Source: Paracoccaceae bacterium
GTDB taxonomy: Bacteria; Pseudomonadota; Alphaproteobacteria; Rhodobacterales; Rhodobacteraceae
Reading direction: 5' to 3'
DNA: 64,000 nucleotides
Assembly: GCA_003567315.1 (NCBI GenBank)
Contig: PWZT01000066.1
Location: 1-64,000 of the forward strand
Part shown: piece by piece, positions 11,154 through 64,000 of the stretch
Position numbering within the stretch: position 1 is the first letter of the stretch
How the letters are laid out: every line of letters starts with the position of its first letter
Program-made: the position numbers and the translations under genes
The notes under the pieces: generated by a model
Seen by the model: the letters and a program-made list of their open reading frames with translations, nothing else
Databases searched by the model: none
What the model was told of the DNA's origin: nothing

Positions 11154-13589
11154 TCAACGCTTGCGCGGTTTCGCCCGTAAGGTCGGATCGGCTTCCAGCG
11201 GGTTTTCGGGCCAGGGATGCTTGGGGTATTGCCCGCGCATGTCCTTGCGCACATCAGCATAGGAATTGGCCCAGAAGCCCGGCAGATCCGTCGTCACCTG
11301 CACTGGCCTGCGCGCGGGCGACAGCAGCACGATCCGCAAAGGCAGGCGCTCAGGCCCCACCACCGGATGCTCCGCCACCCCGAACAATTCCTGCAAGCGC
11401 AGCACAATTTCAGGAGCCTCACCCGAATAATCGATCGGCACCTTGTTTCCCAAAGGGGTTACAAAATGCGCAGGCGCAAGCGCGTCGAGCCTCTGCATCT
11501 GGCCCCAGTCAAGCTGCGCGCGCAGCCCCGGCAACAGATCAAGCCCGCGTAAATCCTCGGCGCTCCGCACGCCTTCCAGCCAAGGCGCGAGCCAGTCCTC
11601 CAGCCGCGCAAGCAGGCTTTCCTCGCGCAGATCGGGCAGGTCAACCCCTTGCGCGCGCAACAGCTCCACCCGCGCGATGAACCGCCGCGCCGCATCCGAA
11701 AGCGGCAGGCCCAGATCGCGCAAGCCCTCGCAAGCGGCGCGGATCACAGCGTCGGGGTCAGGGTCACGCCAGATACGATCCTGCAGAACCAGCGCACCGA
11801 GGCATTCCTGCTCTCGCGCCTCGATCCGCCTGGCACGGCGCGACCAAATGCAGCTTTGGCGCCAGATAATCTGCGTCCCGTAAAGCGCGCGCAACTCGGC
11901 CTCGGAAATGGCAACCGCCTGCCGGATGCGCGCCTCGCGCGGGTCGCCATCACTATCCGTCACCACAATCAGCCGCGCCTGCGCGAGCGAGTCGCCCTCC
12001 GGCAATACCGCACCCTTCCCGCCCGAGAGCACGAAGCGCGGCGCCTCCCCCTTGCGCCGCAACCCGATCCGGTCGGGATAGGCCAGCGCGGCCAACCCGG
12101 CAGGCGAGAGCGCCGCGCTTGCTTCCGGGGCCATCCGCGCAAGCCGCTTCGCTTCCGCCTGCACCCGCTCCAGCGTGGCGCGATGGATAGGGTAGGAATA
12201 GCGATCGCGAAAGCCGCGCGGATCGCGCAGCGCCTCCAGTCGCAGCGTCAGATCCACAGGCGCACCCTGCAAGATGTCGCGCTCGGACAACAGTGCCGCC
12301 AGCCCCGCCGCCCCGCGCCCCCCGCGCAACAGCATATGTGCAAGCCGCGGATGCAGCGGCAGACCGGCCATCGCCCGCCCATGCGCCGTAATCCGACCTG
12401 CCGCATCCAGCGCGCCGAGGCCCCGCAACAGCGCCTGCGCCTCGGCAAGCGCGCCCTCGGGCGGCGGGGTGAGAAAGCGCAAATCGTCGGCGCCACCCCA
12501 GAGCGCCAGTTCCAGCGCGAGCCCTGCGAGATCCGCCCGCGCCATCTCGGGCGGCGCGAATGCGGCGAGCGCGCCTTCCTCTGCCTGTGCCCACATCCGG
12601 TAGCACACGCCTTCCGCCACGCGCCCCGCCCGCCCCCGGCGCTGCTCTGCCTCGGCGCGCGTCACGGGCTCGGTCACCAGCCGCGCCATGCCCGTGCCCG
12701 GGTCGAACCGCGCCCGCCGCGCCCGCCCGCAATCGACGACGATGCGGATATCCTCGATGGTCAGCGAGGTTTCGGCAATCGCTGTTGCGAGCACGATCTT
12801 GCGCCCGTCCTGCATCGGCGCAATCGCCGCACGCTGTGCAGCAAAGGGCAGCGCGCCATAAAGCGGTCGGATCTCCGCCGCCCCCACGCGCCCGTTCAGT
12901 GCAGCGGCCACGCGCCGGATCTCCGCCTCTCCGGGCAGAAACACCAGTATCGCGCCCTCAGCCTCGTCCAGCGCCTGCAGGATCAGGTCCACCGCCCCGG
13001 TCTCGAAGCGTTCAGCCTTGGGGCGCGGGCGCGGTAGCCAGCGGGTCTCGACGGGAAAGGCGCGGCCCTCTGCTGTGAGGATCGGTGCATCATCAAGAAG
13101 CGCGGCAACCGGGCCTGCATCGAGCGTGGCCGACATCACCAGGAGCTTCAGATCAGGCCGCAACGCTCCGCGCAATTCCCATGTGAGCGCCAGCCCCAGA
13201 TCGGCATTGAGCGAGCGTTCATGAAACTCGTCGAAAATCACCGCGCCTATGCCCGGCAATTCCGGGTCACGCTGCACCATCCGCGTGAGAATACCCTCGG
13301 TCACGACCTCGATCCTGGTCGCCTCCGAGACAACAGCCTCACCGCGAATGCGGTACCCAACCCGCCCGCCGGGCCGCTCGCCCAGCAGCCGCGCCATCTG
13401 CTCGGCGGCTGCGCGCGCAGCCAGCCTACGCGGCTCAAGCATTACGATCCGGCCTGCGACATGCTCCATCAGCGCAAGCGGCACGCGCGTGGTCTTGCCG
13501 GCCCCGGGCGGGGCCTGCAACACGGCCCGTCCCTCAGCCTCAAGCGCCGCGATCAGATCGGGCAGGATGGCATCAATCGGCAGATCCAT
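11154..13589 (-). CDS. hrpB: ATP-dependent helicase HrpB
   Basis: A DExH-box helicase of about 811 residues. Walker A is APPGAGKT at residues 26-33, the Walker B box DEFHERS follows near residue 120, and the helicase C-terminal domain has Q-R-R-G-R-A-G-R. After it come the HA2 region and the HrpB-specific C-terminal domain. The biological role of HrpB is poorly defined. ATG 13589 (MDLPID) aligns with the family start; ATG 13613 with GGAG four bases upstream is a possible longer start. It converges with the NlpC/P60 gene. Confidence 0.88.
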   Translation of the reverse strand: MDLPIDAILPDLIAALEAEGRAVLQAPPGAGKTTRVPLALMEHVAGRIVMLEPRRLAARAAAEQMARLLGERPGGRVGYRIRGEAVVSEATRIEVVTEGILTRMVQRDPELPGIGAVIFDEFHERSLNADLGLALTWELRGALRPDLKLLVMSATLDAGPVAALLDDAPILTAEGRAFPVETRWLPRPRPKAERFETGAVDLILQALDEAEGAILVFLPGEAEIRRVAAALNGRVGAAEIRPLYGALPFAAQRAAIAPMQDGRKIVLATAIAETSLTIEDIRIVVDCGRARRARFDPGTGMARLVTEPVTRAEAEQRRGRAGRVAEGVCYRMWAQAEEGALAAFAPPEMARADLAGLALELALWGGADDLRFLTPPPEGALAEAQALLRGLGALDAAGRITAHGRAMAGLPLHPRLAHMLLRGGRGAAGLAALLSERDILQGAPVDLTLRLEALRDPRGFRDRYSYPIHRATLERVQAEAKRLARMAPEASAALSPAGLAALAYPDRIGLRRKGEAPRFVLSGGKGAVLPEGDSLAQARLIVVTDSDGDPREARIRQAVAISEAELRALYGTQIIWRQSCIWSRRARRIEAREQECLGALVLQDRIWRDPDPDAVIRAACEGLRDLGLPLSDAARRFIARVELLRAQGVDLPDLREESLLARLEDWLAPWLEGVRSAEDLRGLDLLPGLRAQLDWGQMQRLDALAPAHFVTPLGNKVPIDYSGEAPEIVLRLQELFGVAEHPVVGPERLPLRIVLLSPARRPVQVTTDLPGFWANSYADVRKDMRGQYPKHPWPENPLEADPTLRAKPRKR

Positions 13590-13633
13590 GCGCCGCTTAT
13601 GCCGCGTGCGCATCACGCTCCGCAAGCACCCTC

Positions 13634-13706
13634 GCCCATGCCGCAGGCATGGGCAGCGCCCGCGAGGCGTGCAGGGGCGGGTGGGTGGGCGCGGCTCGCG
13701 GGCGCT
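13634..13706. repeat. 73-nt two-hairpin element with G-quadruplex loop, copy 1
   Basis: Hairpin 1 (13634-13654) has a perfect 9-bp stem GCCCATGCC/GGCATGGGC with loop GCA. It is directly followed by hairpin 2 (13655-13706), a perfect 12-bp stem AGCGCCCGCGAG/CTCGCGGGCGCT around a 28-nt loop containing GGGGCGGGTGGGTGGG on the plus strand. The second copy at 63594 has an identical loop and stems differing only by compensated changes. Here it starts six bases beyond the CMD-gene stop (minus strand) and precedes hrpB. Confidence 0.9.
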
Positions 13707-13712
13707 TCTTGC

Positions 13713-14267
13713 TCAGAACCGCAGATCCGGCGCCAGAGCGGCAAGCTCCGCTGCAACCCCTTCTTCCAGCGGCGGAGGCGCGCTTTTCAGAATGAACCCC
13801 AGCGTCAGATACATGCCCGCTGTCGCCATCAGATCAAGCACGCCATGCCTCCCCAACAGCGCCTCCAGCCGCGCCATCAATGGCGCGGAAAGCTGCGCGT
13901 CATCCACCAGCGCATCCACGGCCTCGGCCATAAGCGCCTCTTCTGCGCCCATCCCGGACAGCGGCCCGCGCATCGAGGCGATCTGGGCCCTCGAGAGCCC
14001 GACCTTGAGCCCGCGCAGCAGATGCTGGTTCCACTCATAAGCGCAATCGAGCCGATGCGCGAGCCGCAGGATCACCATCTCGGCCCGGACCTTTCCCAAA
14101 GCGGTGTCACGCACGATATGCTCACGCAGCCCCGTCCATGCGCGCAGAAGCGCCGGATGATGCGCCATCAGCCGATAGACGTTCAGCTGACCCGCGAAGC
14201 CTGTGCACATGTCCGCGATCTCTTCGGGCCAATCGGCATCGCTGATCGGAACGAACGGCACACTCAT
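13713..14267 (-). CDS. Carboxymuconolactone decarboxylase (AhpD-like) family protein
   Basis: A 184-residue all-helical protein with a CMD/AhpD-like core: the L-R-L-A-H-R-L-D-C-A-Y-E-W-N-Q-H segment holds the conserved Cys-x2-Glu-x3-His arrangement. The usual CxxC of peroxidase-type AhpD is not present (a single Cys), so it is closer to the CMD branch than to active alkylhydroperoxidases. It is the last gene of an rpiR-aminotransferase-CMD run and overlaps the aminotransferase end by four bases. Its reaction is unknown. Confidence 0.78.
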   Translation of the reverse strand: MSVPFVPISDADWPEEIADMCTGFAGQLNVYRLMAHHPALLRAWTGLREHIVRDTALGKVRAEMVILRLAHRLDCAYEWNQHLLRGLKVGLSRAQIASMRGPLSGMGAEEALMAEAVDALVDDAQLSAPLMARLEALLGRHGVLDLMATAGMYLTLGFILKSAPPPLEEGVAAELAALAPDLRF

Positions 14268-43315: not shown

Positions 43316-43416
43316 ATTGGGGGCCTTGGCAGAGCCACCACGATATGCGCGAAATCCCGTGAAGGCAATGGCCGACACCCGGCCTTGCCCCAACGCGCGA
43401 AACCAAGTATCCAGAG

Positions 43417-43504
43417 CCTTGCCTCGGGGTGCCCTGTCACGGGCTGAGATGCGCCTTGCGCGAACCCGTTGAACCTGACCCGGTTAGGACCGGCGGAGGA
43501 AAGG
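43417..43504 (+). promoter_or_regulatory. TPP (THI-box) riboswitch
   Basis: The closing stem P1 pairs CCTTGCCTC (43417-43425) with GAGGAAAGG (43496-43504). The conserved CGGGGTGCC, GGCTGAGATG, CCCGTTGAACCTGA and GGTTAGGACCGGCGGAGG segments appear in order. It lies 55 bases before thiB and should lower thiBPQ expression when thiamine pyrophosphate is plentiful. No terminator is evident, so translational or Rho-type control is possible. Confidence 0.95.
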
Positions 43505-43559
43505 TCAGGGCACGCGCGCCCCGCTTCGATCCGCCTGTCGTGAGAGATGGAGAGAAGCG

Positions 43560-62157: not shown

Positions 62158-63384
62158 TCAGATATCCGGGGCCTGCTCCGGGTCATCCGCCTCCGGCTCC
62201 GTGCGCCGGGTCAGCAGGTCGCCCTCGCCGGGCTCGGCCGGCGCGATCAACTCATCCACGCTGACAGAGGCGCCGGGCCGCAGATTCTGCACCCCCTCCA
62301 GAACCACGCGCTGGCCCTCGTCAAGCTCGGCGCGCAGCAGCACGGCATCATCGCGGCGCTGCACGATCTCGATGGCCACGCGCTGCGCGGTGTCCTCCTC
62401 GTCCAGCGCCCAGACAAACGATCCGCGCCGATCCCACTGGATCGAGAGCGGATCGACCGCCGGGTAGCGCTCGCCGGGCAGCAGCACCGTGATCAGAAAC
62501 GCCATGCCGGGACGCAGCCGGTCATCGGAATTGTCGATCTCACCCTGGATACGCAGCGTGCGGCTGGTCTGATCGACCCGCGCATCGACCGCGCGGATCT
62601 GCCCCTCCACCTGCTCCATCGGGCGCGAAAGCGGGCTGACTTCCAGCGGATCGCCGGGCCCGATCAGCCCCACGAAACGCTCGGGCACATTGAACTCGAC
62701 CCGCAGCAGGCTGCGATCATCGAGCCGCGCGATCTCGGTCTCGGTGCCGACCTGATTGCCCGCCTCGACCGAGACAATCCCAATCCAGCCCGACACTGGC
62801 GCGGTGATCTGGCGACGGCCCAGCTCAAACTCGGCATCGCGCAGATCGAGCTGCGCCTGATTGAGCGCGAGATCGGCATCCTGTATCTGCACTTCGGTCG
62901 CCGTGCCCGACTCGCGCAGCCGCGCCACGCGGTCCGCGCGCACCTGCGCATCGGCCATCGCAAGTTGCGCGCGCTCCAGCGCCAAGTCCTGCGCGGCGCT
63001 GTCAAGCTGCGCCACGATCTGCCCGACCTCGACCCAGTCACCCGAGGCGACGAACACCTCCTCCAGCCGCCCCGAGACCTCGGGCCGCAGCGTCACGCTG
63101 CGCCGCGCCTCGGCCGTGCCGATGGCGCCCAGCCGGTCATCGGCATCCACATAGCCCACTTCCTGCGCCACGACGCGCACATCACCACCGCCCCCGCCGA
63201 AGGGTGGCCCACCTCCGCCGCCGCCATTCTCGGCATCGGCAATCGGCAGCCCAATGGCGCGCATCGGCGCCAGCACGCCCATGCGCTCCAGCACCGGATG
63301 CGCGGCTGGCAGGAACGCGGCCCAGCCCGCAAGCGCGCCGGCAGTCAGGACCAGACAGACAGTAAGGAGCTTGATCCATTTCAT
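62158..63384 (-). CDS. RND efflux periplasmic adaptor (MFP)
   Basis: About 408 residues. An N-terminal anchor (LLTVCLVLTAGALAGWAAFL) is followed by a long linker with an unusual Gly-rich run at residues 53-67. Lipoyl halves (VTLRPEVSGRLEEVFV, ITAPVSGWIGIVSV) flank an alpha-hairpin with Ala/Arg repeats (about 110-170), and then come the barrel and proximal domains. It pairs with the pump directly downstream. ATG 63384 was chosen; an in-frame GTG at 63396 adds four residues. Confidence 0.92.
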   Translation of the reverse strand: MKWIKLLTVCLVLTAGALAGWAAFLPAAHPVLERMGVLAPMRAIGLPIADAENGGGGGGPPFGGGGGDVRVVAQEVGYVDADDRLGAIGTAEARRSVTLRPEVSGRLEEVFVASGDWVEVGQIVAQLDSAAQDLALERAQLAMADAQVRADRVARLRESGTATEVQIQDADLALNQAQLDLRDAEFELGRRQITAPVSGWIGIVSVEAGNQVGTETEIARLDDRSLLRVEFNVPERFVGLIGPGDPLEVSPLSRPMEQVEGQIRAVDARVDQTSRTLRIQGEIDNSDDRLRPGMAFLITVLLPGERYPAVDPLSIQWDRRGSFVWALDEEDTAQRVAIEIVQRRDDAVLLRAELDEGQRVVLEGVQNLRPGASVSVDELIAPAEPGEGDLLTRRTEPEADDPEQAPDI

Positions 63385-63593
63385 GGCTGTGTCCACGGGG
63401 GTAAGAGAAATCGCTTAACTTGTGTCGAAATAGCGCTGGTGGCGCAATTAGAAAGGATATTGCCAACTGACAAGCTGGTGACCCCTGCCAAGCGACGAAA
63501 AAAGCGGGATATTTCATCGCAACGCCCTTGATTGCCGCGCTGTATCCCCCCTGAAAATCCCTCAAGGCGATGCACGGTTTCAGGCGCAAACCC

Positions 63594-63666
63594 ACCCTTG
63601 CCGCAGGCAAGGGTAGCGGCCTCGGGGCGTGCAGGGGCGGGTGGGTGGGCGCGGCCCGAGGCCGCT
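63594..63666. repeat. 73-nt two-hairpin element with G-quadruplex loop, copy 2
   Basis: Hairpin 1 (63594-63614) is ACCCTTGCC/GGCAAGGGT with loop GCA. Hairpin 2 (63615-63666) is AGCGGCCTCGGG/CCCGAGGCCGCT around the same 28-nt loop as copy 1. It lies in the 313-base gap 63385-63697, 31 bases beyond the stop of the ABC permease gene (minus strand) and upstream of the efflux adaptor. Nothing else is recognised in that gap. Confidence 0.9.
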
Positions 63667-63697: not shown

Positions 63698-64000
63698 TCA
63701 GCGCCCCCGGATCCGCGGGTCGAGCGCGTCGCGCAACCCGTCGCCGATGTAGTTCACGCTGAGAACCGTGAGCGAGATCAGCACGCCGGGCCAGACCACG
63801 CGGGCCGGGTATTGCTCGATCCAGTCGCGCCCGTCATAGAGAATACGGCCCCAGGTCGGGAAATCGGGCGGAAAGCCAAGGCCAAGGAAGGACAGCGCGG
63901 ACTCGGTGATGATCGCACTCGCAATCCCCAGCGTGGCCGAGACCATGATCGGCGAGAGCACATTGGGAAGCACATGGCGCGTATTGATCCGGAGCGACGG
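63698..64000 (-). CDS. ABC transporter permease, DppC/OppC type (partial)
   Basis: The 3' end of a gene whose start lies beyond the window; 100 residues are visible. It begins within RINTRHVLPNVLSPIMV, the EAA-type loop of peptide ABC permeases, and continues through ESALSFLGLGFPPDFPTWG and VNYIGDGLRDALDPRIRG, the typical DppC/OppC C-terminus. It would import di/oligopeptides or nickel-like substrates together with further dpp genes outside the window. Confidence 0.9.
   Translation of the reverse strand, partial: PSLRINTRHVLPNVLSPIMVSATLGIASAIITESALSFLGLGFPPDFPTWGRILYDGRDWIEQYPARVVWPGVLISLTVLSVNYIGDGLRDALDPRIRGR

Follow-up and report, generated by a model that had tools for sequence, protein, structure and literature searches.

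The described repeats closest to the elements considered here are the BoxC/PIT (TM_ECO) sequences of E. coli and the recurrent quadruplex motifs of the Methanomicrobiaceae, and, as far as the cited parts of the two reports go, both differ from them in structure and setting. BoxC/PIT repeats are likewise intergenic, G/C-rich and repeated, with a near-identical core, a G-rich tract and no transposon link, but in the cited part of that account they form a triplex in vitro, lie upstream of ORFs more often than downstream and show no strand bias (PMC4666352), whereas our elements have a cap with a G-quadruplex (G4) motif, lie at gene 3' ends, are polar with respect to replication and have a free stem sequence. 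The methanogen motifs are also intergenic, repeated G4 motifs, about half of them in tail-to-tail positions and with a competing hairpin; they are, however, archaeal, their C tract pairs with the G tracts themselves, and the section cited describes no replication polarity (PMC8044849). In our elements, by contrast, the G4 motif caps a separate duplex. The GGGAATC quadruplex repeats of Xanthomonas and Nostoc are intergenic and often lie close past stop codons, but, according to the excerpt cited, they are heptamer tandem repeats and not a loop on a conserved stem (PMC4692102).

Two further kinds of element share other features with this set. Rho-independent (bidirectional) terminators have in common with it a GC hairpin behind genes, the T tract seen in this clade and the AAA...TTT symmetry found in one relative (G015), but the capped hairpins differ from them in their large G4 loop, in having two hairpins and in taking their orientation from replication instead of from the gene. 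The KOPS/AIMS octamers, exemplified by GGGNAGGG in E. coli, resemble the capped hairpins in being G-rich and replication-polar; the hairpins, unlike the octamers, have the opposite strand preference, are long and occur in few copies. Kaplan reportedly described, in 2016, a G4-hairpin-duplex switch of E. coli. In the literature searched, which takes in few subscription papers, we recognised no earlier description of such hairpins.

The window, meaning the whole stretch of 64,000 nucleotides analysed here, contains two copies of the element, arranged with their neighbouring genes as follows.

13634..13654, + strand: hairpin 1 of copy 1, with a 9-bp stem and a GCA loop; its arms covary among copies.
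13655..13706, + strand: hairpin 2 of copy 1, with a 12-bp outer stem (13655-13666/13695-13706), a G.G mismatch (13667/13694) and a 5-bp inner stem (13668-13672/13689-13693).
13674..13689, + strand: G4 motif of copy 1, GGGG C GGG T GGG T GGG.
13706..13710, + strand: pyrimidine/T tract of copy 1, 3' of the hairpin on the G-rich strand; the T tract of the family.
63594..63614, + strand: hairpin 1 of copy 2.
63615..63666, + strand: hairpin 2 of copy 2, with three compensated pair changes relative to copy 1.
63634..63649, + strand: G4 motif of copy 2.
13713..14267, - strand: CMD-family gene (Pfam PF02627); copy 1 sits 6 nt past its stop.
11154..13625, - strand: HrpB-type helicase gene (PF08482), flanking copy 1 on the opposite side.
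63698..64000, - strand: ABC transporter permease gene (PF00528), clipped by the window end; copy 2 sits 31 nt past its stop.
62158..63396, - strand: HlyD-type membrane-fusion gene (PF16576), flanking copy 2 on the opposite side.

The first-pass annotation had drawn attention to these two copies (13634-13706 and 63594-63666), and its observation is confirmed and proves larger than described. The copies are equal in length and share an identical 28-nt loop; hairpin 1 differs between them by G-C to A-T and A-T to T-A, hairpin 2 by C-G to G-C, G-C to T-A and A-T to G-C, and all five changes are compensated. Both copies lie, as had been reported, just past the stop of a minus-strand gene, that of the CMD-family protein and that of the ABC permease. 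Missed at that stage were the G4 motif of the loop, the inner 5-bp stem and a fixed orientation relative to replication: the 28-nt loop contains a G.G mismatch, the 5-bp stem and a canonical G4 motif. On both strands the two copies fold better than shuffled sequences, with z from -2.98 to -3.92 and 0 or 1 of 200 shuffles equally good.

Many further copies had been named as a test of a structured family, and they are found. Allowing up to 3 mismatches, the loop occurs 41 times in the 2.84-Mb genome of the window (G000) and 0 times in a reversed control, and a covariance model, R1, has 52 matches there at 51 places, one place being matched on both strands. The contrast of 41 copies with none in the control, together with the 51 covariance-model places, rules out chance. 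At one locus (L031, G000:C5, about 2989) the second hairpin lies 3' and not 5' of the G4 hairpin, and the model matches both strands. In a set of 40 genomes including G000, R1 matches 14 at E 1e-4, G000 among them and all of the same genus, with match numbers that vary among genus members from 0 to 105, the maximum, in G015; among 295 family genomes it matches 3, again including G000. A pattern scan of named genomes gave at least 106 stretches, and those listed all come from organisms named as Rhodobacteraceae bacteria, Natronohydrobacter, Rhabdonatronobacter, Pararhodobacter or Cochlodiniinecator. The earlier proviso that this might be an already catalogued repeat was checked against Rfam, where no relevant match reached the gathering score (window searched strictly, copy 1 permissively) and the copies are not identical to any family.

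From 42 loop matches we obtained an alignment of 38 rows, leaving out one truncated copy (L014), one deviant copy (L040) and two that were out of register (L030 and L031); a false loop match on the minus strand (L009) had been removed before alignment. The covariation asked for in further copies is present, both here and at orthologous sites: 20 of the 26 pairs change on both sides, and double-change cells in the two helices number 89 against 22.7 in shuffles, although the rows are related and the cells are not independent events. Helix 2 is paired on the G-rich strand in 646 of 646 cells, counting as paired the U-G that 32 rows have at one inner pair and the G-U that 17 rows have at the next. 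These cells would be A.C on the C-rich strand, and only the G-rich strand pairs consistently. Helix 1 varies more and is aligned partly out of register; it is paired in 87.5% of cells. Stem position 10 is G.A in 68, and position 11 A.G in 66, of 189 instances drawn from many genomes; tandem G.A forms on the G strand only.

The four GGG tracts are intact in 37 of the 38 rows, which were picked by similarity to the window loop, a choice that bears on this conservation; the G-tract columns are nearly invariant while the linkers vary and the first tract slides. In relatives, too, the inner stem and linkers vary and the G tracts mostly stay. Four G3 tracts with short linkers, kept against substitution, thus make up a predicted G4 motif. 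In the closest relative by protein identity, G006, from which 11 of 13 matches were fetched, one copy is without a G4 and two have a broken G tract, with stems retained, which indicates that the G4 is not indispensable. One G006 locus (L239, G006:C129), orthologous to L024, has lost the G4 cap and kept the stem and hairpin 1, and constitutes a natural G4-deletion allele. The compensated changes had been read as the mark of selection, or copying, acting on structure; the covariation stands, but selection as its cause is not proven, because perfect arms could also be maintained by template-switch correction.

Comparison of orthologous sites shows how the elements change in place. Ten of the G006 elements match a G000 element locus in one flank or both, and for the eleventh both flanks match L295; in all 11, the flanks adjoin an element in G000 too. 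The flanks of one of them (L231, G006:C115) lead to two G000 elements, L021 (G000:C53) and L030 (G000:C4), with both alignments running through the element, which marks a rearrangement breakpoint at the element itself. At the other orthologous sites orientation and position are kept and stems change: in 23 comparisons (27 pairs less three unparsed and the wrong parse L076-L245; 10 of the 23 from one five-species site), 222 of 276 outer-stem pairs are the same, 26 carry two-sided changes that are still Watson-Crick, 21 have switched between Watson-Crick and G.A, 3 involve G.T and 4 are broken. At the site of copy 1, among 8 relatives with 61-82% protein identity, the 7 with readable downstream DNA have other sequence there and no element was found, and in some relatives an ordinary terminator-like hairpin, judged by eye, lies 3' of the gene. 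At the site of copy 2, none of the 23 relatives with readable upstream DNA (24 orthologues) has a G4 motif within 600 nt upstream of the HlyD-type gene. We also considered hairpin 1 as a terminator that pre-existed at the insertion site, and rejected this because the same hairpin 1 accompanies many copies and changes at orthologous sites.

Hairpins of this design are not limited to the sequence recognised by R1. A pattern with GCGCC/GGCGC ends enclosing a G4 has 234 matches in 31 of the 295 family genomes, G000 included, against 33 matches in 21 genomes for its reversed control, and 87 against 30 when G000 and G076 are left out; a few of the matches consist of nothing but poly-G, and the control, being an inverted repeat as well, is able to catch capped hairpins. 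Many of the matched stems are unrelated in sequence and nearly perfect over 12-30 bp. A second covariance model, R2, was built from 23 capped hairpins with covarying stems and no fixed stem sequence (alignment A5, which omits six out-of-register rows of the 29-row alignment A4), and its covariation arises by construction, since the source hairpins were chosen for their stems. With at most 21 candidates scored per genome in the large searches, all of them within the class, R2 matches 68 of the 295 family genomes (genera) at E 0.001 and 19 of the 40 genomes at E 0.01, G000 included in each case and none of the 19 outside the genus; in a 289-genome sample of the class it matches G000 only, and three other family genomes in that sample have none. 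The pattern GATCTGCGC...GCGCAGATC occurs in 4 of 37 genus genomes and encloses a G4 in only 2 of them (G011 and G021), at an orthologous site. Three genus members (L335, L337 and L338) have a common hairpin, GCGCGCCCTTGCG / CGCAAGGGCGCGC, around a G4, with L335 and L338 at an orthologous site. Going by organism names, the class is a dispersed set of predicted G4-capped hairpins of one bacterial family, the Rhodobacteraceae.

The gene context of these elements is distinctive. With genes called by our own codon-usage script, 109 of 168 elements had both neighbours within 300 nt, and of these 72 lay between convergent, 35 between tandem and 2 between divergent genes (+- 72, -- 25, ++ 10, -+ 2), whereas baseline intergenic gaps, 70-500 nt long and taken from the window and from loci L089-L194, divided into +- 58, -- 80, ++ 64 and -+ 44 (n=246, of which 144 tandem). 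Counting orthologous copies individually, the convergent enrichment has a p of 6e-14 and the divergent depletion a p of 5e-6; 11 of the 168 elements fell inside called ORFs. In this clade the elements sit a few tens of bases past stop codons, mostly between convergent genes, and in having a GC-rich hairpin close behind a stop codon they resemble terminators. T occupies the first base 3' of the hairpin in 160 of 189 instances, the second in 110 and the third in 84, and the mean number of T in the four bases 3' of it is 2.1-2.3 in the three main contexts, compared with 1.17 for 81 ordinary 3' hairpins and 0.70 for places taken at random. The U tract does not generally lie on the sense strand of the gene that has ended, however: in tandem pairs the G strand, and the tract with it, is antisense to both genes in 25 of 35 cases and sense in 10 (p 0.017). 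For the tandem pairs with an antisense tract, which are the majority, this direction excludes an intrinsic terminator of the adjacent gene. In each of the 72 convergent pairs the tract would suit one of the two genes. In other genera many hairpins have no T tract and the gene contexts are more mixed. A terminator-type boundary is suggested by where the elements lie, behind genes, and by this clade's T tract, and the earlier proposal of a structured 3' element gains support from the position at gene 3' ends, the further copies and the covariation.

We had an early impression that orientation was governed by the upstream gene; this was dropped when the tandem ratio reached 25:10 with more genomes, and the replication strand gives a better fit. 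In 40 tiles from six other genera, placed at known matches and with the element strands known before skew was computed, the G strand of the capped hairpins runs opposite to the local GC skew in 43 of 46 cases; of the three exceptions, two share a tile with a skew of -0.007. In G000 this orientation is shown by 21 of 30 elements when every skew is admitted but by 12 of 13 when |skew| is >=0.02, and pooling at the latter threshold gives 49 of 51 with the G-rich strand opposite to skew. It is seen with ++, -- and +- neighbours alike. The few uncapped G4 motifs of the tiles have no such bias (3 of 8 against skew). The same relationship can be followed along the 5.56-Mb contig of G278, where 10 of 10 listed matches from 0.3 to 2.15 Mb are on the minus strand and skew is positive in 9 of 10 tiles up to 2.5 Mb, while 5 of 6 listed matches from 2.97 to 4.65 Mb are on the plus strand and skew is negative in 8 of 8 tiles; one of the 17 listed matches, at 5.41 Mb, lies where skew is unclear. 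Matches mostly hold one strand along contigs, as in 10 of the 14 G000 contigs with at least two elements.

Two features support taking the positive-skew strand as the leading strand: it carries 61% of coding bases and, in the window and 20-kb tiles, an excess of 242:65 of GGGNAGGG, the KOPS-type octamer of E. coli. With the G strand opposite to skew, the G-rich strand is thus the leading-strand template. The hairpins themselves are not KOPS, an identity that we considered and rejected, since their G strand lies in 49 of 51 cases opposite to the strand on which GGGNAGGG lies 242:65. As a separate observation, GGGNAGGG (242:65) and GGGNCGGG (494:221) both favour the positive-skew strand in the window and 20-kb tiles (L370-L449) and are candidate FtsK-orienting octamers for this family. 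The trend reported for bacteria, in the portion of the source cited, is for G4 motifs to go with GC skew and lie on the leading strand, the G-richer one (PMC12581993), and the capped hairpins, at 49 of 51, run opposite to it.

We prefer to interpret these elements as putative two-way boundaries whose orientation is limited by replication. In its full form, this interpretation holds that the element is a terminator-type 3'-boundary hairpin, that its G4 is kept on the leading-strand template, and that its arms are matched by selection, template switching or both; we give this combination an even chance of being correct. We suggest that the hairpin, with its short T tract in this clade, would block RNA polymerase and convergent read-through, and that the G4 cap would strengthen the block, either as folded RNA on G-strand transcripts or as a roadblock on the template strand. 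An element would persist only if its G-rich strand were the leading template, perhaps because the G4 is least exposed as single strand there. The arms would change fast and yet stay matched if unpaired variants were selected against, corrected by leading-strand template switching, or both. Mutability measurements in E. coli, in the cited part of the study, show that (G3T)8 is 5- to 174-fold more mutable with the G strand as lagging template and that a (G4T)4 dimer behaves in the opposite way, being more mutable on the leading template (PMC10530614).

An alternative that we think unlikely, but must take seriously, is that the palindromes have a mutational origin. A leading-template G4 would stall the polymerase, and the nascent strand would fold back and copy itself, building and re-perfecting a palindrome that is tolerated only behind genes; covariation would then reflect copying and not selection. 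The leading-template polarity (49 of 51) and the swapping of stems at orthologous sites are consistent with this origin, as are arms that are arbitrary in sequence yet Watson-Crick in 606 of 644 cells, in hairpins picked for a stem score >=9. Likewise, 26 of 31 long perfect palindromes with 11-40-nt loops in the tiles, most of which were chosen at such hairpins, hold a G4; 14 short palindromes without one are uninformative because a G4 cannot fit their loops. A leading-strand-specific case of quasipalindrome template switching is said to exist, to judge from a cited title. Copying leaves unexplained, however, the U-G and tandem G.A pairs, both of which correction should erase, as well as the T tract, the conservation at orthologous sites and the restriction to one family in the class sample. 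What makes the mutational reading of covariation a serious rival is that quasipalindrome correction is, in the passages cited, a nascent-strand template switch with strand bias (PMC7202029).

A bolder proposal, which we put forward tentatively and regard as rather unlikely, would join copying to function. Rhodobacteraceae may carry replication-polar, self-perfecting palindromes, in which a leading-template G4 stalls replication, template switching builds and repairs the hairpin, and the product is used as a direction-marked boundary of transcription units. If the palindromes were self-perfecting in this way, stem covariation would record polymerase copying as much as selection, and the set serves as a warning that replication might generate stem covariation.

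It is also improbable, in our view, that the elements are a replication or segregation signal, that is, a polar mark that a translocase, helicase or fork-pausing factor reads on the leading template and that stands behind genes since promoters and coding sequence do not admit it. Orientation does follow replication in ++, -- and +- contexts (42 of 45 elements with both neighbours called, in other genera), and the polarity is far stronger than the gene bias, with 61% of coding bases on the positive-skew strand. A signal of this kind is nevertheless hard to reconcile with the few copies in many carriers (1-2 matches in 49 of 68 family genomes, with at most 21 candidates scored per genome) and with a polarity opposite to that of KOPS-like octamers, and no protein partner was found, the Y1 transposase being the sole partner sought.

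The elements are short extragenic palindromes in many copies (52 matches at 51 places), and in this they resemble REP sequences; near-identical cores dispersed within a genome, genome-specific stem variants and match numbers ranging unevenly from 0 to 105 among genus members would also fit a REP/MITE-like palindrome spread by a transposase. Such mobility is very unlikely, however, because a Y1 transposase (Y1_Tnp, PF01797) exceeds the Pfam cut-off in only one of ten carriers (G001), the other nine, which include G000, G015, G006 and G076, having none above it, and because 11 of 11 fetched G006 elements share their element-adjoining flanks with G000. The REP-like mobile hairpin offered in the first-pass annotation is therefore not borne out. 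A BoxC/PIT-like intrastrand triplex in place of the quadruplex is highly improbable: although many copies have, by eye, a C-rich arm (CCCGCC) within hairpin 1 or ahead of it that is complementary to GGCGGG in the loop, and BoxC oligonucleotides, in the part of the report cited, also looked G4-like until NMR (PMC4666352), the outer stem comes between this C-rich block and the G block, where a triplex calls for contiguous pyrimidine, purine and purine blocks. In other genera, again by eye, many of the capped hairpins have no C block in the flank viewed.

The capped hairpins make G4 tolerance, replication polarity and gene-end position separable in one natural set, and they offer a testable system for the handling of G4s by the leading-strand polymerase. 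Elsewhere in the window, the Rfam search placed a TPP riboswitch at 43415-43518 on the + strand, with 70 bits and an E of 1e-11.
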